From an uncultured Bacteroidales bacterium (GTDB lineage: Bacteria > Bacteroidota > Bacteroidia > Bacteroidales > Paludibacteraceae): DNA of 64,000 nt. The notes beneath the pieces are model-generated. The model made no database searches and had not been told where the DNA came from. It saw only the letters and a program-made list of their open reading frames with translations. Within the stretch, counting starts at the first letter, position 1, and each line of letters opens with the position of its first letter. A program made the translations under genes and the position numbers. This document shows positions 31,616-41,492 of this stretch, one piece after another. The stretch spans positions 1 through 64,000 of the forward strand of contig CADCDS010000008.1 of assembly GCA_902800215.1 (NCBI GenBank), written 5' to 3'.

Positions 31616-31653
31616 TTCGCCATTCGACCATTAGCCGTTAGCCATTCGCCGTT
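31616..31653. repeat. GCCATTCG/GCCGTTAG word repeat
   Basis: TTCGCCATTCGACCATTAGCC-type words, five units, reaching the stop codon of the DUF4874/DUF4832 gene. Confidence 0.8.
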
Positions 31654-34633
31654 ATTTTACCTCCTGTCCGGTGACGGTATAAACTTTTCCGTCGCGGAGG
31701 ATGAAGATCTGACCGTCACGGATGACCTTCTGAACGCTGATTGCTGACGGCTGAATGCTCTCTATTCCCGTCGGCACGTCTGCGAACAAAGTGATGGATT
31801 TCATCTTCGGCTGTCCCCATGCAGTCGCATTCTGGATACGCAAGGTATAGGTGCCTGCAGGAACAGCACTCAGATCCCATTTTGTGCTTTGTGTATAGCT
31901 CTGGTCGCCGGATCCCCAGTGGTCATCTGTAGTAGTGTATGATGCCACTTCGGTCGTGCCGTCCATCAGTTTCAACGAGAAGGTATGACCGTTCTCGCAA
32001 TAACTTACCTCCGATACATCATACGCCTTCGGGTGCTTGAGATAGACGGTCCATTCTGCCCAGCGGTCGGTATTCGTTGCATCGGTCGGACCAAAATCAA
32101 AGTAGTCGGTGTTATACCAGGTCATATCATCGCTGTATGCCGTCACGTTGGACTTATCGAGCGTAGCCGGCAGTTGGATGGCACCTTCCTGCGGTTGAGG
32201 ATCGGGATCCGGATCCACCTGACCGCCTTGCGACGAACCGGGACGAACCACTTTGATAGCCGTCAGACCGGAACCGCTGCCTACGGCACGCTCGATGTTC
32301 AAGGAAGCACTGGAGACGCCTTCGCCTATCACAGCATACGTAACAGCATAATTGCTCTTGTCTGCACCACCCGCCATACTGCTTGCTACGTCACCGGAAT
32401 GTGTTCCTGCCGTAGAGGCTTTGAACGTGTTGTAGGCACAGATATAGATGGTATCGCCGGTCTTGAAGCCGCCTGCTTCTGCTATCGGTTCGATGGTGAA
32501 ATACAGCGCGTTGGCACCGAACTTAATACCCTTGTTGTTGGTCGCTTTCAGATCGTCCGGCACGGCCGAAGTATAAGCGGCACTCTCCACGGTGAAGTTC
32601 TTGGTAGCATCCGTCTTATGGCAGGTCAGCGTACCGGCATTGGTTGTCAGAACGGTGCCTTCCGTAGGTACGGTCGTAGTGTTGTTCTGCCAATGGAAGA
32701 TAACGGAACTGCCGGTAGTCGGTTGAGGATCGGGATCGGGATCCGGATCCGGGTCCGGGTCTGGGTCAGGATCAGCCGGCACTTCTGCAAACAAGGTGAT
32801 GGATTTCATCTTAGGTTGTCCCCAAGCAGTCGCATTCTGAATGCGCAAGGTATAAGTACCTACCGGAACAGCACTCAGATCCCATTTGGTGCTTTGTGTG
32901 TAACTCTGGTCGCCGGCTCCCCAATGGTCATCCGTCGTGGTGTAAGATGCCACTTCGGTCGTGCCGTTCATCAGCTTCAAGGAGAAGGTATGACCATTCG
33001 TGCAGTAACTAACCTCCGATACATCATACGCTTTCGGATATTTGAGATAGACGGTCCACTCTGCCCAGCGATCGGTATTAGTTGCATCGGTCGGACCGAA
33101 ATCGAAGTAATCGGTGTTATACCAGGTCATGTCGCTGCTATAGGTCGTTACATTGGCCTTGTTGAGCGTTGCAGGCAATTGGACAGCTCCCTCTTGCGGT
33201 TGAGGATCGGGATCCGGGTCTGGATCAGGATCCGGATCAGGGGTAACGGCATTGCCGGAAACGGTGACCGAAGCATTCAGTTTGTTCATACCCGTGGACG
33301 AATCCCACAGGTTGCCTTGGTTCGCAAAACGGATGGCATACTTCGGATTCGAAGCCAGCGAAGCGTATTTATCGGGCATATGCAGGTAGAGTTGGTAAGT
33401 GCCTGCCGGTATATTGGTCGGCACGGTTAACTGCTCATTGATCGTCGTCACCGCATCGTTCGGCAACCACCGACGGGGATCGGAGTTGAGTTTCAGCGAA
33501 TAGACGTTATTGCCGTTCTTAAGCACGATATACGCATGGCGCTCGTTATACAAAGGCGCATAACCCGTGTTGCGAATCTGCATGTTCACGGATAACTTAC
33601 CACCCGGTGCGACTTGGTCACTATAGGTACCGCTCACCAGTTGGTAACGGTAACCCATCTTACGGTCCAGGTTATCATAGATACCGCTGCTGCGCCATTT
33701 ATCGGTCACCGCTTCTGCGTACGTCGAACCGCAGAATGACCAGTGATAGGTACTCATCTCGCTCTCCGCCTGAGTATAGACGCTGTTGGCTTTCGAATTA
33801 CTCTCCACGTTGGTCTCGCCGCCGTTGGGCACATAAAGTGTCTCGTCAGCAATATACTGTCTTACGGCAGGATCATCGCTTTTATTGGTGCTGGCATACG
33901 TGCCGTCATTACCGTAGGAATTGAGGAACGCATCATTATGATGGCCGATGCGGGCACGGGTAGCCGTGGTGAATGCCTGCGAAGACGTAAGTGCGGTTTC
34001 GTCACCCAGATACTCGGTCTTGATCATCGGATAACGGACTAAGAGGAAACGGTCCGACGGACAGGCATCGATCATCGCTTCCAGTATCTGACGACGGTTG
34101 GCCGTCAAGTTCTGGGTCTCGTTGCCGTGATGCGAGGAATAATACCACTCACCCCATTGGCCGACAAAACCCGTTTGTAACACATAGATCACATCGGCAT
34201 TGGCTGCCAGGTACGGTTTCAATTGTTCGATATGCCGTTTGGTCCATGCGACGGTAGCATCGTTGTTGCTGTTCCAGTCATAGGCAAAACGCAAAACGCA
34301 TTTAAATCCCTTGTTACGCAGGATCTGCATGTCTTCGTTAAAACCCTGCAGGATCTGCGAGGAGAGGTCCTGGGAACGATAGTTGCCTAAGTAGTAAATA
34401 GCGACCACCAGCGTCTGGTTAGCACGGTCACTGGAAGTAAAATACCAGCTGGCCTCCGGCTGAATAACATGATTGCTGGAGTTCGACAGCATCGTTTCTC
34501 CACCCAACTCTTCCGTAAAACCACGTTCCGGATTCGGGAAAATAGTGGTGTTGTCTGCCGTGTAGGTCACATTCGTGGCATAGGCAGTCATCAAGCCCAT
34601 TGTGAGCATCAAAACAGAGAAAAGTTTCTTCAT
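31652..34633 (-). CDS. Secreted DUF4874/DUF4832 protein with duplicated beta-sandwich modules
   Basis: A 993-residue exported protein. After a signal peptide (to about 19) come DUF4874 and DUF4832 (about 30-450; PNPERGFTEE, FAYDWNSN, QTGFVGQWGEWYYSSHHG), a TIM-barrel pair resembling glycoside hydrolases. Three modules follow, joined by (Asp-Pro)n linkers: a beta-sandwich (about 480-620), an unrelated sandwich (about 640-800) and a near-identical second copy of the first (about 812-950). The modules look like carbohydrate-binding domains. The C terminus (GQIFILRDGKVYTVTGQEVK) resembles type IX secretion sorting tails, so surface export is likely but not certain. Residues just before it (SIQPSAISVQ) come from a GCTGATTGCTGACGGCTGA word repeat. 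Monocistronic, own promoter and terminator. Substrate unknown. Confidence 0.85.
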   Translation of the reverse strand: MKKLFSVLMLTMGLMTAYATNVTYTADNTTIFPNPERGFTEELGGETMLSNSSNHVIQPEASWYFTSSDRANQTLVVAIYYLGNYRSQDLSSQILQGFNEDMQILRNKGFKCVLRFAYDWNSNNDATVAWTKRHIEQLKPYLAANADVIYVLQTGFVGQWGEWYYSSHHGNETQNLTANRRQILEAMIDACPSDRFLLVRYPMIKTEYLGDETALTSSQAFTTATRARIGHHNDAFLNSYGNDGTYASTNKSDDPAVRQYIADETLYVPNGGETNVESNSKANSVYTQAESEMSTYHWSFCGSTYAEAVTDKWRSSGIYDNLDRKMGYRYQLVSGTYSDQVAPGGKLSVNMQIRNTGYAPLYNERHAYIVLKNGNNVYSLKLNSDPRRWLPNDAVTTINEQLTVPTNIPAGTYQLYLHMPDKYASLASNPKYAIRFANQGNLWDSSTGMNKLNASVTVSGNAVTPDPDPDPDPDPDPQPQEGAVQLPATLNKANVTTYSSDMTWYNTDYFDFGPTDATNTDRWAEWTVYLKYPKAYDVSEVSYCTNGHTFSLKLMNGTTEVASYTTTDDHWGAGDQSYTQSTKWDLSAVPVGTYTLRIQNATAWGQPKMKSITLFAEVPADPDPDPDPDPDPDPDPQPTTGSSVIFHWQNNTTTVPTEGTVLTTNAGTLTCHKTDATKNFTVESAAYTSAVPDDLKATNNKGIKFGANALYFTIEPIAEAGGFKTGDTIYICAYNTFKASTAGTHSGDVASSMAGGADKSNYAVTYAVIGEGVSSASLNIERAVGSGSGLTAIKVVRPGSSQGGQVDPDPDPQPQEGAIQLPATLDKSNVTAYSDDMTWYNTDYFDFGPTDATNTDRWAEWTVYLKHPKAYDVSEVSYCENGHTFSLKLMDGTTEVASYTTTDDHWGSGDQSYTQSTKWDLSAVPAGTYTLRIQNATAWGQPKMKSITLFADVPTGIESIQPSAISVQKVIRDGQIFILRDGKVYTVTGQEVK
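31731..31760. repeat. GCTGA word repeat inside the DUF4832 gene
   Basis: CGCTGATTGCTGACGGCTGA-type words in frame, encoding SIQPSAISVQ just before the C-terminal tail. Confidence 0.75.
31772..32210. repeat. Direct repeat, beta-sandwich module copy A
   Basis: About 440 bp, closely similar to 32777-33215; encodes the C-terminal copy of the duplicated module (WYNTDYFDFGPTDATNTDRW in both). Confidence 0.9.
32777..33215. repeat. Direct repeat, beta-sandwich module copy B
   Basis: Second copy of the module, offset 1005 bp from the first. Differences are mostly synonymous, which indicates a recent duplication or gene conversion. Confidence 0.9.
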
Positions 34634-34788: not shown

Positions 34789-37700
34789 TCAGAACGGATA
34801 GCCGATGCCGAAGTTGATACGGATGGCATCGAGTGCCGACGGGATATTAAAATAGGTGGTGATCGGTGCGTTGTAATCGGGTTTTCCTTCCTTGTCATAC
34901 CGGTAGGTCTGGTAAGGCGCATGGATAGCCACACCGATATCCAGCCGCACAACGAGTCCGTCGATATCCAGTCGCAGACCGGCACCGGTACCGAGAGCAA
35001 TCTGTTTCGCCCATTCCGGGTTATTGAGAATACCATCCCGTAAGGTCTCCGGGATCTCCAGTTTAGCGATATACTCCTCCATTCCGGCGGCTTTGAGCAT
35101 ATCCGTGAGAGATAACCAGTTCCATACGTTTCCGGCATCTACAAAGGCCGCACCGTATAGTTTCCACACGATAGGGAAACGCAGTTCGAAATTCGCTTCC
35201 AACTTCACATCGCCCGAGTGGAAGAAGTTCTGGTTATACTTGGCGGAATAGAAGTTACCCGGTCCGTAAGCATAGGCTGTTGCAGCACGGAGACTGTTCG
35301 GTCCACCGGTGTAGAACGCTTCCGAGAGCGGTGTGAAATTCGAGTTACCCACCGGTATATTCGCTCCGGCAAAGAGACGGGTAGCGATCGAGACCTTATC
35401 CGTGAAATTGAATTTATTCCTCAGTTCCGCCTGCAGTTTGACAAACTGATTAAACGTGATCTTGCCGAACGGTTTTTCCATATCCTCCCATTTGTATCCT
35501 AACGCACAATAGAGGGCGTTGAGGATGTTTCCCGACTCCTTGATACCGAGGTTAAGGAAGGTGTTCACATGCCTTTTGGCACGGTAGTCATTATAGACGA
35601 AGTTATACGCGATAGAGGGCACAAACTCATCTCCGGCGATCACCTTGATGAGTTGCGGATATTCCGCCGCCTTATCCAGCAGACTGTCCGACTCCGCTTT
35701 CATGCGCACCACGGAGAGCGAGAAAGGAGTGAACGCATGCGTGATATAAGGACTGTTGGCAGAACGGATGAAATAGGAGAAGGAGCCGGTGATCTTATGT
35801 ACCCCGTATCCACCGGCGATGTTCTCGTACTGATAACCGAGCATGTATCGGGTGTCCCCTTGCGGGTTGTTATCACCCTTCCAATGCAGATAAGGGAAGA
35901 TAAGAGATGCATTCAGACCCAGTTTGTAGGTATCCGTCTTACGGGGATCCCCCGGGTGACGGTTTCGCAATGCCCAGTAATAGGCACCGTTACCTTTGAG
36001 CGTGAACGTCTCGCCGTGACCGAGGATATTCTTGATGGAGGACTTGAGCGTCAGATCCGGTCCGATACTGTTATTCGACCGATAGGCGACACCTGCATCG
36101 GCTGTCAGACCGTAGGTGCGGATGATACTGTCCGACCGGTACCATTCCTTTCGTTTCCAGTCCTTGGTGGCACGCACCGCCAAACCGGATTTGTACAGTT
36201 CTCCTTCCAGCACATTGTTATAATCGCGTTGGGAGAAGAGCCGCAGCTGCACGTTGCCGTCCTTGGTCAGTTTATAATCGGCAGAAAAGGAATTGAGCAG
36301 ACCACTGGTGGAGTTGATCTCAGGGTTGTCGGTAAGGGTAGACCCTAAAGTCAGCCGCAGACGTTCTTTGAAGAAGGACTTACTGATGGAGATATTCATG
36401 TCGTTGGTGGTGCCGCCGGCATGGGTACTCTGCGCACTGCTGACATCAATATCGATCACCTTACCCACTTTGGAGTTGGCTAATGCGGCATTGATACGAC
36501 TGTTGATGATGGAGGACAAGGCATAGCCGCTCCGTTGTGCCGCTACGTTACTCTCCCCGACGTACATACCGGTAGCCAAGAGCGTAGCCGCCAGACCTTC
36601 CCGGGTACCTTCATCGACAGTAGCCAGTTCTCGTGTTATAGCCTCATCATCCGGTGCTTCGAGGAAGAAAGCAATGCTCTTCAGACCGATGGTATCCAGT
36701 GCACCGTGTACCCGTACACCGGTAACAAAATCCACCCGTCGTGTCTCTTCTTCTTCCGATTCCACATCGGCTTTCACTTTCTGCGAAGCGGAGATATTCA
36801 GTTGCGTCTGACCAATCGGTCCGTTAAAGACCACATGACTGCCGGAATCCAACCGGAACGGCATGATGGGGTATATCTTCGGCGAATAAAGCACTTTGCC
36901 GTCATCGACGTGGATCCGTCCATGCAGGGCAAGCGAGTCGATGGAAGCCACCGGACAATGCACCGTAACCGCACCGTGCGGTTTGACTTGCGCTAAGTTC
37001 TTCTTATCAATCGGATAGGTGATGTCGGTGGATGGTAAGAGTGCCACTTCGACGTCAGCAATGATACTGTCCAGCGCACCGGAGACGGTTCCATGCAGAT
37101 CGGTAGCCAAAGCGCCATGCACCGGTAGCGGTCCACCGGCAGGTAGAGACACCGGCACCAGACTGTCTGCATCCAAGCGGATGTTCAGACGCATGCTATC
37201 CAGGTCCAATCCACCGTTCAAAGCGATAAAGGTGCTATCCACCATGTATATCGGCAGACCGTTGAGGTCCACATGGTTATGCTGCATAATAATCGGTGTC
37301 TCGCCTAAACGGACATCGACCGCATAAGGTATGTATTGTGCCTTAATCCCGACGGGTTGCACTTGCGCAGAGATGTCGGTGACAAACGGTAAACCGTCCA
37401 CGGAAGCGGAAGCACGAACGGCTCCGTGCAGATCGATGTCGGGGAGGGTGACAAAACCGTCCATGAGTTCCAAAGGCAGTTCATCCGGATGCACCTCCAC
37501 CCGGAGGGCATTCGTATAGGTGTCTGAGGAGGAGAGACGGATATCCACCGCCCTGTTTCCGAACTCCTTATCACCGTATGCGAGACTATCCAGCATCAGT
37601 AGTCCGGTACCGCTGATCTGTTGACCGACCTTATGTACATCCATGCGGAAGGCGGCATCCGTACAGAGGCCATAGAAATCCGAGGCACCGTCGGTAAGGA

Positions 37701-39252
37701 AGGTATTGGTCGTCACAAACGCATCCGTCGTGCTGTCCGTCATCGTCACGTCCAAGGCCGCTTCTGCAGTCGGCAGGCGAAGAGAAGGAGGAAGGGTAAC
37801 GGCGATCGGCGAAAGATGAACGGTCGAAGAGTCCGCATCGGAACGGATGGCCAAGGAGAGTTGGTCAAAATCCACGCCGAGACTGTCTAAGATCGCCTGT
37901 GCCGGACTGTTCCTGGCGATATGCAGATCGGTCTGAATAGCAGGTATCAGATGCCGGATCCGTTCCGGTTGATACAAATCGCTATCCTGAATGGCTTCCA
38001 ACAGTGGTGAAAGGCTGTCCAGGAAGGTAAAGAGCGACATCGGAGTACGCACATCGAGTTGAAGCGAAGGCATGGTGATGGCCACCGAAGTGCTGTCATC
38101 CGGAGATGTCGTTGTAATTCCCCTACCCGATGCCTCGATGTCACCGGTCAAGGTGCGCAAAGGCAGGTCGGTCACAAAAGGAGACAGATCCACATGACCG
38201 ATATGAACCGTCGCATCATAGACTTCCTCATCGATGGCATAGGATGCTTTGAGTCGGGCTTGGTTCCCTTGATAGGTCACGGCACCGACAGTGGAAACCT
38301 GCATGGTAGCTAAATCCATCTGCGCTTCCGACAGATCGGCTTCAGCACCCATCTCATCGGAACGCACATAGATACCGTCACTGGTGATGAGGTTCTTTTC
38401 CAGATCGACACAGGCCTCGGTACGCACGGTGTCAACAGGGATACGCAGGTCGTTCATGACAAAGGTTAGTTGTCCCACTTCCAACCGTCGGGCTTCGTAC
38501 CGATTCGCACCTACATCCGCCAAGGCATTGGTAGCGATACTCCGTGTACGGACATCGATACCCATGGGGTTGAGGCGAAACCGCACATTGCGGATATCGG
38601 CATTCGGTACGTCAAAAGCCATCAGCAGCGGTGTGGTGTCCTTGGGTAGGGTATCCACTTCCGGACTGTCCTGCGTTGGCCGCAAATCGATCGCTACATC
38701 CGCATCATACAGACACAGGTCACGGATGGGATATTGGCCATCCGCTATGATGATCTGAGGACTGTTTAGCGTCAACAGACCTAACATACCGTCGATGCCT
38801 ACTGCTTCAATCAGGCTGTCAGAATGGATGACAGCGGAATCCAATAGCAGTTGTTCCAGAATAATAGGAAATTGGAGATCGGATATTGGAGATTGGATAT
38901 TGGCTGTTTGTGCGGTGGCTTTGAACCGTAAGGAACGGGTGTACAGCAAGGTGTCTTGACCGCGGTGACCGATGAAGAGACTGTCGATCTGCACGTCGAT
39001 GGGTAAGTCCACATCGCCTTTGTACGCCCGATAAAAGGTTAAAGGCGAATGATGGAAAGGCGAGAGATAAATATGCCCTAAGTCAATATCCAAACCCGTC
39101 TGTTCCCGGGCGACCGCTATTCCGATATCCAGCACGGCTTGCCGCACCGTAGGTACATACAGTACGCACACGACGGTAGTCAGTACCCAGAACACGATAC
39201 CGAACAGCACACCCAAGAAGGCGCAGAATATATTAGAAATTCTTCTGAACAC
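34789..39252 (-). CDS. TamB - Omp85 (TamL/TamA-like) barrel fusion
   Basis: A single 1487-residue chain. Residues about 1-40 form a signal anchor (FLGVLFGIVFWVLTTVVCVLYV). Residues to about 1040 are TamB-like: AsmA-type start, long beta-rich repeats and the conserved C-terminal TamB segment (LLATGMYVGESN near 890; SKSFFKERLRLTLGSTLTDN near 960; DYNNVLEGELYKSGLAVRATKDW). Bacteroidetes TamB proteins normally end here. Instead the frame continues about 445 residues as an Omp85 barrel: repeated aromatic beta strands, GGPNSLRAATAYAYGPGNFY (about 1335, the TamL/BamA lid motif), FVDAGNVWNW and a final INFGIGYPF. No POTRA domains are visible. TamB bridges inner and outer membrane; here bridge and barrel are covalent. 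GTG at 39252 (or TTG 39255) is the start, overlapping the previous gene. A GGAGATTGG word repeat is in frame near residue 125. Confidence 0.85.
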   Translation of the reverse strand: MFRRISNIFCAFLGVLFGIVFWVLTTVVCVLYVPTVRQAVLDIGIAVAREQTGLDIDLGHIYLSPFHHSPLTFYRAYKGDVDLPIDVQIDSLFIGHRGQDTLLYTRSLRFKATAQTANIQSPISDLQFPIILEQLLLDSAVIHSDSLIEAVGIDGMLGLLTLNSPQIIIADGQYPIRDLCLYDADVAIDLRPTQDSPEVDTLPKDTTPLLMAFDVPNADIRNVRFRLNPMGIDVRTRSIATNALADVGANRYEARRLEVGQLTFVMNDLRIPVDTVRTEACVDLEKNLITSDGIYVRSDEMGAEADLSEAQMDLATMQVSTVGAVTYQGNQARLKASYAIDEEVYDATVHIGHVDLSPFVTDLPLRTLTGDIEASGRGITTTSPDDSTSVAITMPSLQLDVRTPMSLFTFLDSLSPLLEAIQDSDLYQPERIRHLIPAIQTDLHIARNSPAQAILDSLGVDFDQLSLAIRSDADSSTVHLSPIAVTLPPSLRLPTAEAALDVTMTDSTTDAFVTTNTFLTDGASDFYGLCTDAAFRMDVHKVGQQISGTGLLMLDSLAYGDKEFGNRAVDIRLSSSDTYTNALRVEVHPDELPLELMDGFVTLPDIDLHGAVRASASVDGLPFVTDISAQVQPVGIKAQYIPYAVDVRLGETPIIMQHNHVDLNGLPIYMVDSTFIALNGGLDLDSMRLNIRLDADSLVPVSLPAGGPLPVHGALATDLHGTVSGALDSIIADVEVALLPSTDITYPIDKKNLAQVKPHGAVTVHCPVASIDSLALHGRIHVDDGKVLYSPKIYPIMPFRLDSGSHVVFNGPIGQTQLNISASQKVKADVESEEEETRRVDFVTGVRVHGALDTIGLKSIAFFLEAPDDEAITRELATVDEGTREGLAATLLATGMYVGESNVAAQRSGYALSSIINSRINAALANSKVGKVIDIDVSSAQSTHAGGTTNDMNISISKSFFKERLRLTLGSTLTDNPEINSTSGLLNSFSADYKLTKDGNVQLRLFSQRDYNNVLEGELYKSGLAVRATKDWKRKEWYRSDSIIRTYGLTADAGVAYRSNNSIGPDLTLKSSIKNILGHGETFTLKGNGAYYWALRNRHPGDPRKTDTYKLGLNASLIFPYLHWKGDNNPQGDTRYMLGYQYENIAGGYGVHKITGSFSYFIRSANSPYITHAFTPFSLSVVRMKAESDSLLDKAAEYPQLIKVIAGDEFVPSIAYNFVYNDYRAKRHVNTFLNLGIKESGNILNALYCALGYKWEDMEKPFGKITFNQFVKLQAELRNKFNFTDKVSIATRLFAGANIPVGNSNFTPLSEAFYTGGPNSLRAATAYAYGPGNFYSAKYNQNFFHSGDVKLEANFELRFPIVWKLYGAAFVDAGNVWNWLSLTDMLKAAGMEEYIAKLEIPETLRDGILNNPEWAKQIALGTGAGLRLDIDGLVVRLDIGVAIHAPYQTYRYDKEGKPDYNAPITTYFNIPSALDAIRINFGIGYPF
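38868..38904. repeat. GGAGATTGGATATTGG word repeat inside the TamB fusion gene
   Basis: GGA(A/G/T)ATTGG words, four units, in frame; encodes NIQSPISDLQFPII. Confidence 0.85.
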
Positions 39253-40057
39253 CAAACTTCAATCCATACATTCCGGGAGTAAACTGACTGGCTAACAAGT
39301 TCTTCAATTTACCGGAGAAGATGATGATATCGTTGCTGTACTCATTATGACGGTCACCGGTAACGGCATCCTCATAGAACCGTGTCGTTCCGCTATAACC
39401 GAAACTCATGATGGAAAAGAAGATCTGGAACGTGCTCTTGCGGTTAAACCGGTAGGTGATCACCGGCGACACCTGGCATCCGTAAGTGACGCTGTGCCGT
39501 AAACCATCGTAGTCGGTGCCGATCACCGCACCGTCTTTGACACGCGGAAACTCCATACCTGCATACAGGTGCGCTTCCAACCAGATGCCCACTTTGTCGT
39601 TAAACAGCGTCTTCATACGGTAACGCACATACGGCGCCGCTTCCCAAGAACCGTGCATCACCCGGATGCTCTCCTCGTATTTGGTGCCGTCATCTTTGAT
39701 GTAGTTCGTCGTGGTGTACGTATCCGAATAAGCACCACCGAAACGCAAACCCAGATAGATGCGTTCCTTCAGTTTCCATCCGATCTCCGGTGTGAAAGCG
39801 ATCGACCAACCGTTCTCCTTCTTATCCGTCTTGGAGTCATGATGGAAATAGATGTCGAAGTTATACCCGTAGTACAACTTCTGCTTCCACAGCGGGATCT
39901 CCTGCACCGGTACTTCCACCGCCACACTGTCCGTCGCCGTCTGCGTCTCACCGGCTACCGTCGCTACACCCATCACACCTTCCGAGATCGGATCCTGCGC
40001 CATCATCGGCAGCATACCTAACACCGCTGCCAAAATAGATATATAAATTTTCTTCAT
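39233..40057 (-). CDS. Outer membrane beta-barrel protein, unknown function
   Basis: A 274-residue exported protein: signal peptide MKKIYISILAAVLGMLPMMAQ, a low-complexity T/V/E-rich linker (about 25-55), then about ten amphipathic strands (YYGYNFDIYFHHDS ... GIWLEAHLYAGMEF ... YGLKFGVQKNF) ending in Phe, as in small outer membrane barrels. I do not recognise a named family. The ATG at 40057 is chosen; a longer frame adds MANGERRMV, encoded wholly by a CGCCATTAGCC word repeat. It overlaps the TamB fusion gene by 20 bp and may be its client or partner. Confidence 0.8.
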   Translation of the reverse strand: MKKIYISILAAVLGMLPMMAQDPISEGVMGVATVAGETQTATDSVAVEVPVQEIPLWKQKLYYGYNFDIYFHHDSKTDKKENGWSIAFTPEIGWKLKERIYLGLRFGGAYSDTYTTTNYIKDDGTKYEESIRVMHGSWEAAPYVRYRMKTLFNDKVGIWLEAHLYAGMEFPRVKDGAVIGTDYDGLRHSVTYGCQVSPVITYRFNRKSTFQIFFSIMSFGYSGTTRFYEDAVTGDRHNEYSNDIIIFSGKLKNLLASQFTPGMYGLKFGVQKNF

Positions 40058-40060
40058 AAC

Positions 40061-40090
40061 CATTCGCCTTTCGCCATTAGCCATTAACCT
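40061..40090. repeat. CATTCGCC/CATTAGCC word repeat
   Basis: CCATTCGCCTTTCGCCATTAG-type words at the junction of the antiporter stop and the barrel gene. Confidence 0.8.
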
Positions 40091-41436
40091 TTATGATCAT
40101 TCTCCGTCATATTTTTGAAGAACAGATTCACCACCCGTTTGGTGATGATCGTATGACTGAGCAGTTTCTGTACCCGTCCGGAATGCGTTTGCAGTTTTTC
40201 TTCCGAAGCGGTGGTTGTCATCTGTTCCTTGCGTGCCACTTCTTCCTCCCGACGGTCGATCTTATCGCGCATGCGCTCAGGTGCATGCTTATAAATAAAG
40301 TTATAACACGGCATGGTGCCCTTCATGATATAAGGAGTCAGGAAGGTCGTCAGCACCGATGCGGCCACGATGATCGGATAGATCGCCGGATCGGTCACCT
40401 GCAGTTTGGATCCCAGTGCCGCGATGATGAAAGAGAACTCACCGATCTGCACGAAGGAGAATCCCGTCTGCATCGCATCTTTGAGCGTCTGACCGCCCCA
40501 CCAGCAACCAAGGGTACCGAAGGTGATCATACCGACAATGATGACAACAGAGACAAAGAGGATCGATGACCAGTATTCGGCTAACGACGCCGGGTCGATC
40601 ATCATACCGACGGAGACGAAGAAGATGGCGGAGAAGACATACTTCAGCGGCGCCATGAGTTTCTCTATCCGGTGGGACTCCAAGGTCTCGGCTAACACCA
40701 TACCCATTACAAACGCACCCAGTGCGCTACTGAATCCGGCTTCTTCCGCCGTCAGCGCCATACCTAAACACAGACCCAAGGCCAGAATGATGAGGATCTC
40801 ATCGTTCAGGTGCTTGCGCACCTTGCGGAACAGCGTCGGGATGATCAATATACCGACGATGAACCAGACGGCCAAGGTGGCGGCTAAGACACCGATGGTT
40901 TTCAGCATCACCACGCCTTCAAAACTACCTTTCTCTGCGATTCCGGACAGCAGCACCAACAGCACCACCGCCACGATATCTTCCAAAATCAGGATACTCG
41001 TAGCACCCTTCACGAAACGCGCTTTACCCAGTCCGGCTTCATCCACCGCTTTCATCACGATCGTCGTGCTGGACATACAGAGCATCGCGGCTAAGAAGAG
41101 GGAGTTCATGTTATCCAGTTGGGCAAAACGACCGACACCGTAACCTAAGAGCAGCATACCGCCGATGATGGTGGCGGCACCGATAAGGGCGGTTTTTCCA
41201 CTCTCTAACAGGTTCTTGATGCGGAACTCCAGACCGATGCAGAACAGCACAAAGAGCACACCGATATTTCCCCAGGCCTCTACGTTCTCGTGGCTCACCA
41301 GGTTCTCTCCGAAGAGATTTGGCCCCACTAAGATACCGGCCACAATGTAACCCAAAACGACCGGCTGCTTGAGCAGTTTGAACAACAAACTCACCACGCC
41401 GGCCGTGATCATTAAGATGTATAAGTCTTGTACCAT
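40084..41436 (-). CDS. CPA2-family cation:proton antiporter (KefB/GerN-like)
   Basis: A 450-residue inner-membrane protein with about 12 helices. GYIVAGILVGPNLFGE (about 30), the CPA2 ion-binding region and FVQIGEFSFIIAALG (about 335) are family signatures. The cytoplasmic tail (from about 390) is short and charged, with no RCK/TrkA-N domain. Likely exchanges K+ or Na+ for H+. ATG at 41436 is used because the promoter (41461-41492) excludes the longer frame. The minus strand continues with the barrel and TamB fusion genes, so those may be one transcript. Confidence 0.92.
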   Translation of the reverse strand: MVQDLYILMITAGVVSLLFKLLKQPVVLGYIVAGILVGPNLFGENLVSHENVEAWGNIGVLFVLFCIGLEFRIKNLLESGKTALIGAATIIGGMLLLGYGVGRFAQLDNMNSLFLAAMLCMSSTTIVMKAVDEAGLGKARFVKGATSILILEDIVAVVLLVLLSGIAEKGSFEGVVMLKTIGVLAATLAVWFIVGILIIPTLFRKVRKHLNDEILIILALGLCLGMALTAEEAGFSSALGAFVMGMVLAETLESHRIEKLMAPLKYVFSAIFFVSVGMMIDPASLAEYWSSILFVSVVIIVGMITFGTLGCWWGGQTLKDAMQTGFSFVQIGEFSFIIAALGSKLQVTDPAIYPIIVAASVLTTFLTPYIMKGTMPCYNFIYKHAPERMRDKIDRREEEVARKEQMTTTASEEKLQTHSGRVQKLLSHTIITKRVVNLFFKNMTENDHKG

Positions 41437-41460
41437 ACGTATAGAAATTGTTTGCGGCTG

Positions 41461-41492
41461 CAAAATTACAAAAAAAAAATGAAATGTGCAAG
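41461..41492 (-). promoter_or_regulatory. Promoter of the antiporter operon
   Basis: Minus strand: CTTG at 41489-41492, 20-nt spacer, TAATTTTG at 41461-41468. Its -33 box is 5 bp from the -33 box of the divergent murI promoter. Confidence 0.82.

Follow-up and report, generated by a model that had tools for sequence, protein, structure and literature searches.

A single open reading frame on the minus strand of the window, the 64,000-nucleotide stretch of uncultured Bacteroidales DNA analyzed here, joins the C-terminal domain of a TamB protein to a complete Omp85 barrel of the TamL type, as shown by profile comparisons of its translation. The gene occupies positions 34789..39255 and encodes 1488 amino acids counted from a TTG codon at 39255; the start is either this codon or a GTG at 39252, and the stop codon lies at 34789-34791. 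There are no internal stop codons in the 1488 codons, as expected from the initial annotation, which had named no strand and had described one uninterrupted frame that runs from a TamB-type N-terminus and repeat region through the conserved TamB C-terminal segment into an Omp85 barrel that lacks POTRA domains. We regard it as virtually certain that the fusion is real. The reading that we favor, with modest confidence, is that it represents a TAM of a second type in which a TamB2-TamL2 pair has become one chain, forming a permanent covalent hybrid barrel and a two-membrane bridge, probably for lipids.

Both halves of the protein are recognized by profile models. Pfam TamB (PF04357) matches residues 772-1011 with 60 bits (cut-off 22.4), and Pfam Omp85 (PF01103) matches residues 1269-1488 with 59.3 bits (cut-off 24). 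The NCBIfam TamL model NF052279 covers residues 1048-1488 (34792..36114, minus strand) with 305.6 bits over model positions 336-747 of 747 only, a match that includes the entire barrel half and nothing of the POTRA half. The full-length cut-off of this model is 400 bits, which the fusion does not reach and which the separate TamL of the same genome exceeds at 624.6 bits. No Pfam model of a POTRA domain matched the fused protein at E <= 1, in a search where HMMER filters remove most matches above E ~0.1, and the same library found five POTRA stretches in the genome's own BamA and one in its own TamL. A PDB search with the fused sequence returned no match, and one with a profile of the fusions returned only weak matches to BamA and TamA, the best of them to BamA at E 0.062. 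That the barrel is something other than Omp85 is ruled out by NF052279, PF01103, and an alignment to E. coli TamA that is described below.

A total of 1047 residues stand N-terminal of the barrel match. Residues 33-930 (36466..39159, minus strand) make up the TamB repeat region, which is partly covered by the Pfam TamB match and is otherwise conserved over 72 fusions; by analogy with the fold of the family, it is presumed to form a beta-taco groove that spans the periplasm. The TamB C-terminal domain follows at residues 931-1033 (36157..36465, minus strand). By eye, it presumably contains six beta strands, with the last at about residues 1024-1033. Unlike in TamB, where this region is the end of the protein, the fused protein extends about 455 residues past it. 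The repeat region varies by entire blocks (alignment columns 435-607, near residues 380-390 of the window gene). The window copy and the fusion at locus L038 are without a block of roughly 70-90 residues that is present in the other nine aligned fusions, and locus L036 has an additional near-copy of about 72 columns. The length of the TamB groove seems free to change.

The end of the TamB portion can be placed in two ways that agree. When a profile of the TamB C-terminal region was aligned by hhalign with residues 960-1259 of E. coli TamB (probability 84.5; E 6.9e-6, a value that applies to one template and not to a database), the last E. coli residue, F1259, fell on W1033 of the fusion. The alignment confidence is good in the preceding strands and takes its lowest mark over the last ten residues at the TamB end. 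In 20 unfused TamB2 proteins, the match of the fusion profile to TamB stops at positions equivalent to residues 1027-1041 of the window protein, consistent with the hhalign placement. The barrel match to 20 unfused TamL2 proteins starts at window-equivalent residues 1025-1058, which is residue 352-388 in TamL2's own numbering for 18 of the 20 and residue 492-495 in the two longest frames. These boundaries indicate a fusion that lacks the TamB2 tail and the TamL2 signal, lipobox (assigned by eye), and POTRA region. With a TamB end near residue 1033 and a TamL model start at 1048, the entire link would be some 10-20 residues, at approximately 1034-1047 (36115..36156, minus strand), and it stands in place of the TamL2 signal peptide, lipobox, and POTRA region. 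The barrel start of about 1040 that had been proposed initially is therefore correct to within about eight residues.

Aligned with E. coli TamA by hhalign, the barrel scores a probability of 96.4 (local) or 97.8 (global), and these alignments are credible in their C-terminal half only. Because their N-terminal half is not credible, strand 1 of the barrel was placed by the start of the TamL model and by eye, which sets T267-Y274 of TamA beside T1051-Y1058 of the window protein. The lid motif reported earlier, GGPNSLRAATAYAYGPG, is found in loop 6 at residues 1317-1333 (35257..35307, minus strand), and the protein ends in INFGIGYPF as described. The loop-6 motif of Omp85 proteins is (V/I)RG(F/Y). 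The window protein reads LRAA here, so that the arginine is present and both the glycine and the aromatic residue two places after the arginine are absent. This aromatic residue occurs in all 20 TamL2 proteins and in all 27 TamL1-side rows that have the motif pattern (38 rows examined), compared with one of the 82 fusion frames that have it (94 examined, duplicates included).

The same junction is found in many other genomes. When named genomes were scanned with an alignment of 11 fusions, at least 569 relatives were confirmed, of which the best 80 were retained. All 80 carry the junction in one open frame, which argues that the fusion is not an assembly join and excludes the join or stop codon near residue 1040 that the initial annotation had offered as grounds for discarding it. 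In two of these loci (L088 and L102), the frame is broken upstream of the junction. The 80 were retained for their similarity to a fusion and so demonstrate its wide occurrence, not its frequency. By record title, 74 are Bacteroidales or Paludibacteraceae and six are Bacteroidia or Bacteroidetes, and all of the source records are MAGs or uncultured. A host is named in 32 of the 80 titles by our own count, comprising 31 ruminants and one horse.

One frame with both halves exists in at least 11 of the 150 family genomes searched, which represent four genera; in at least six of the 13 genomes of the window's genus; and in at least five of 393 genomes of the order, in three families, all counted among the matches listed. 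The listing starts from the strongest matches, and fusions that are weak or divergent could have escaped it. In 395 phylum-wide genomes searched at E 1e-50, the sole frame with both halves is the window's own. The TamL model matches 110 of 118 phylum genomes at E 1e-20, and among the matches listed only the window's frame exceeds 936 amino acids. Thus, neither phylum search found a fusion outside the order, although many of the genomes are drafts, which makes such absences soft. The gene seems to be patchy even inside its genus. Confinement to one genome is rejected by the family, order, and named-genome counts, and the question raised earlier of how widespread the fusion is can be answered with at least 80 other loci, which make it a lineage-wide gene rather than a one-off.

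The fusion is very likely of the TamB2/TamL2 type, a name that rests on gene arrangement as described for Flavobacterium johnsoniae (PMC12045153). In a barrel tree of 75 rows, from which BamA was left out because it had no profile coordinates, 17 fusions are monophyletic (SH-aLRT 100) and fall, together with all 20 TamL2 proteins, in a set of 37 rows (100); the closest unfused row is L163 (98). In a TamB tree of 68 rows, the 17 fusions likewise group with all 20 TamB2 proteins (37 rows, support 100) and away from TamB1, and the TamB2 rows' own grouping has a support of 9. A careful barrel tree, trimmed to 54 rows by omitting three long TamL1 rows and others, again recovers the fusions as one clade and the TamL1 side as one group (both 100/100). 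An AU test of fusions nested within TamL2 versus sister to it settles neither placement (p = 0.23). The fusion profile also scores 175-243 bits on the 20 TamL2 proteins versus 97-151 bits on nine other TamL rows of the family. Together with the profiles, the TamB2 and TamL2 boundaries, and the 80 loci, the two trees bear out the architecture first proposed.

In the 20 unfused pairs, TamB2 (1490-1627 aa) precedes TamL2. The two frames abut or overlap in 18 pairs, by exactly 4 nt in six of them, and are separated by gaps of 847 and 291 nt in the remaining two. Abutting or overlapping frames offer a ready starting point for a fusion. Four other adjacent TamB-TamL pairs in genomes of the family (L048, 5053-10862; L050, 3131-10412; L051, 3905-11243; and L053, 1216-8616) were rejected as the unfused ancestor because both trees place them with TamB1/TamL1. 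They are possibly a third type of TAM.

A fusion of the main TamB and TamL is ruled out by both trees and by the presence of separate main copies. The window genome contains TamB at two places and Omp85 at three, and the check for a separate tamL suggested by the initial annotation finds one of 724 amino acids with a lipobox-like VSC (by eye), along with a separate TamB of 1500 amino acids and BamA. Among 14 fusion genomes, a separate TamB (frames of 1399-1586 aa) and a BamA-sized Omp85 (866-939 aa) occur in all 14, and a TamL-sized Omp85 (722-781 aa) occurs in 13, missing only in G365. No second TamL-sized Omp85 was found in these genomes at E 0.001. This combination suggests that it is the second TAM, rather than the main one, that the fusion replaces. 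Further short Omp85 frames of 360-540 amino acids occur on G142:C21, G008:C58, G041:C104, G040:C48, G123:C5, G365:C3, G126:C15, and others. They are too short for the usual POTRA domains and are perhaps noNterm proteins or another short type. At the edge of the window, positions 1-1175 (uvrB-like) match the end of contig C23 (L046, 15070-16244) with 94.2 percent identity over 1175 bases. The two contigs look adjacent but from different strains. The separate TamB1 on C23 may therefore belong to another strain that was co-binned, although a separate TamB is also present in 13 other fusion genomes.

Strand 1 of an Omp85 barrel begins, and the last strand of its partner ends, on the periplasmic side, so a short periplasmic turn would suffice to join them. 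The fusion could then be a permanent covalent version of the TamA-TamB hybrid barrel, with six TamB strands added to the sixteen of the Omp85 barrel; by analogy with the noncovalent complexes, we consider such a covalent hybrid somewhat probable. By cryo-EM, about half of the E. coli particles show strand 1 of the TamA barrel paired with the final TamB strand (PMC12800296), and a TamL-TamB model has 22 strands (PMC12045153). POTRA domains are described as necessary and sufficient for TamA-TamB binding (PMC11014939). If the tether performs the docking that is done elsewhere by these domains, then they could be lost. The N-terminal helix would stay embedded in the inner membrane, the TamB repeats would span the periplasm as a groove, and folding of the barrel into the outer membrane by BAM would leave the protein anchored in both membranes. 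The complete arrangement, in which a periplasmic turn makes the hybrid barrel permanent, both membranes hold the bridge in place, and the groove delivers lipids directly to the wall of the barrel, is more tentative and falls slightly below an even chance.

The fusion resembles several known systems in part. F. johnsoniae TamB2-TamL2 (Fjoh_1899-Fjoh_1900), whose function is unknown, has the same two partners encoded by overlapping genes in the same order, as a second TAM beside the main one (PMC12045153), and both of our trees group the fusion with unfused pairs of that arrangement. It differs in consisting of two proteins rather than one, and TamL2 is predicted to be a lipoprotein and to contain three POTRA domains (PMC12045153), whereas the fusion has neither feature. 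Deletion of tamB2-tamL2 in F. johnsoniae is reported to be viable (PMC12045153). In E. coli TamA-TamB, the TamB C-terminal domain and the Omp85 barrel both align with the fusion, and the last TamB strand pairs noncovalently with TamA strand 1 (PMC12800296), but the gene order is tamA-tamB, and TamA has three POTRA domains. The noNterm subfamily of Omp85 proteins shares a barrel without POTRA domains but has no N-terminal extension, whereas the fusion carries TamB (PMC4104836). The Borrelia burgdorferi BamA-TamB hybrid is similar in that TamB C-terminal strands are proposed to complete an Omp85 barrel; these are separate proteins, and their interface has been modeled only (PMC13382580). We found no published description of a TamB-Omp85 fusion in the open-access literature. 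In the main texts of related studies, the words "fused" and "fusion" are absent from PMC12045153 and PMC4494059, "fused" is absent from PMC12800296 and PMC13382580, and "fusion" is absent from PMC11014939.

As a gene fusion, the protein is evidence for joint action of TamB2 and TamL2 in a 1:1 ratio. It also makes it testable whether the hybrid barrel of TamA and TamB represents the machine at work or at rest, since that state would here be fixed covalently. If the hybrid is permanent, then POTRA domains in this type of TAM would serve mainly to dock TamB, and the machine could work without ever freeing the gate of the barrel. A natural join of this kind could reveal the way in which bridges of the TamB type are attached at the outer membrane. 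If one chain carries both an inner membrane helix and an outer membrane barrel, then BAM would have to fold a barrel that is tied to the inner membrane; to our knowledge, no other single chain combines the two.

A TamB strand held permanently at the gate would occupy the site that an outer membrane protein substrate needs, which makes a fixed lipid bridge seem likelier than a protein insertase, and lipids would have no POTRA domains to cross. We judge a main role as a lipid bridge to be plausible, at not quite an even chance. Depletion of TamL in F. johnsoniae causes no substantial change in outer membrane lipids (PMC12045153), so a lipid role is doubtful for TamL itself. The fused TAM might instead mainly assemble outer membrane proteins and use its TamB strands as a built-in template or as a gate that swings aside for substrates. 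TAM is known to assemble autotransporters, hybrid and non-hybrid states both exist (PMC12800296, PMC11014939), and TamB strands on a short tether could still peel off. Against this role, the tethered strand would compete with any substrate for strand 1, the loop-6 aromatic residue that is kept in every TamL2 is gone in nearly all fusions, and the fusion is without the POTRA domains whose deletion from TamA inhibits or abolishes Ag43 folding in vitro (PMC11014939). In E. coli, deletion of TamA POTRA2 is lethal and deletion of POTRA1 or POTRA3 is harmful in the authors' assay (PMC12800296), and hence POTRA loss could mean that function has changed. On balance, assembly of outer membrane proteins is unlikely to be the main role, although it is the most credible of the alternatives. 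A possible client for it is the probable outer membrane protein encoded directly upstream in many fusion loci.

This neighbor encodes 283 amino acids (39233..40084, minus strand) and overlaps the fused gene by about 20 nt. Its product is, by eye, a probable small outer membrane protein, and it has no Pfam or NCBIfam match at E 0.01. Of 93 fusion loci, 53 have a homologue of this gene upstream in the same orientation, and the distance is at most 24 nt for 40 of the 54 homologues; the 93 loci, like the frame sets used for the N-terminus and the loop-6 motif, include at least five contigs twice. The 283-aa protein is thus a candidate partner or client of the fusion.

Bridging of two membranes by the fused protein depends on its N-terminus. 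Residues 12-32 (39160..39222, minus strand) form a hydrophobic segment with a Kyte-Doolittle mean of 2.6 over 21 residues, which is presumed from this hydrophobicity to be an inner-membrane signal anchor. A strongly hydrophobic segment is present in every fusion frame whose N-terminus is intact (91 frames, counting duplicates; Kyte-Doolittle 2.07-3.39). A lipobox-like string occurs in one of the 91, and no lipobox pattern is present within the first 70 residues of the window protein. If the segment were instead a cleaved signal peptide, then the protein would reside in the outer membrane only and its groove would be free in the periplasm. In 51 of the 91 frames, the hydrophobic stretch has a small-x-small string close to its end, which would fit cleavage, but the stretch is long, the window copy has no such string there, and a signal anchor is among the defining features of TamB (PMC4494059). 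Cleavage is accordingly improbable, and anchoring of the fused protein in both membranes is what we consider likely.

Another possibility is that the chain is cut after insertion to give a separate TamB and a barrel without POTRA domains. The linker is charged, and residues 1030-1039 are the least conserved (0.56) of 21 ten-residue blocks between 920 and 1129, as an exposed cleavage site would be. The length of the linker, on the other hand, is nearly constant. The distance from G1018 to N1061 is 44 residues in 48 of 72 fusions, 46 in 15, and 33-53 in the other nine; these linker and conservation counts leave out nine of the 80 loci that are truncated by a contig end or frame break. A cut barrel would also have no tether, POTRA domain, or lipid anchor to hold TamB. 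Cutting is therefore a little more improbable still than loss of the N-terminal helix, and an intact chain agrees better with the constant linker.

Both halves of the fusion are under purifying selection. For ten close pairs, dN/dS is 0.09-0.21 in TamB residues 1-929 and 0.05-0.19 in the barrel; the TamB C-terminal domain gives 0.04-0.15, with one pair undefined. Values for the linker, which is only 39-45 nt, range from 0 to 0.56 (undefined in three pairs). The window genome is a 30-contig draft that is 85 percent complete and has two contig ends that look like different strains, but an assembly join, sequencing error, or decayed gene is hardly conceivable with dN/dS far below 1 in both halves and the junction intact in the 80 best loci of other genomes. 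In one close pair (L073/L074), dS is 1.32 in the TamB C-terminal domain versus 0.14 in the rest of TamB and 0.17 in the barrel, as if this stretch had been exchanged by recombination.

Two other genes flank this region. A sodium/hydrogen exchanger family protein (Pfam PF00999) is encoded at 40084..41463 on the minus strand, and homologues of it lie near 43 of the 93 fusion loci, upstream in 28 and downstream in 15. A 993-aa DUF4832/DUF4874 protein (window positions 31652-34633) adjoins the fused gene; by eye, it contains a module that is repeated internally, and it matches a sorting domain weakly.
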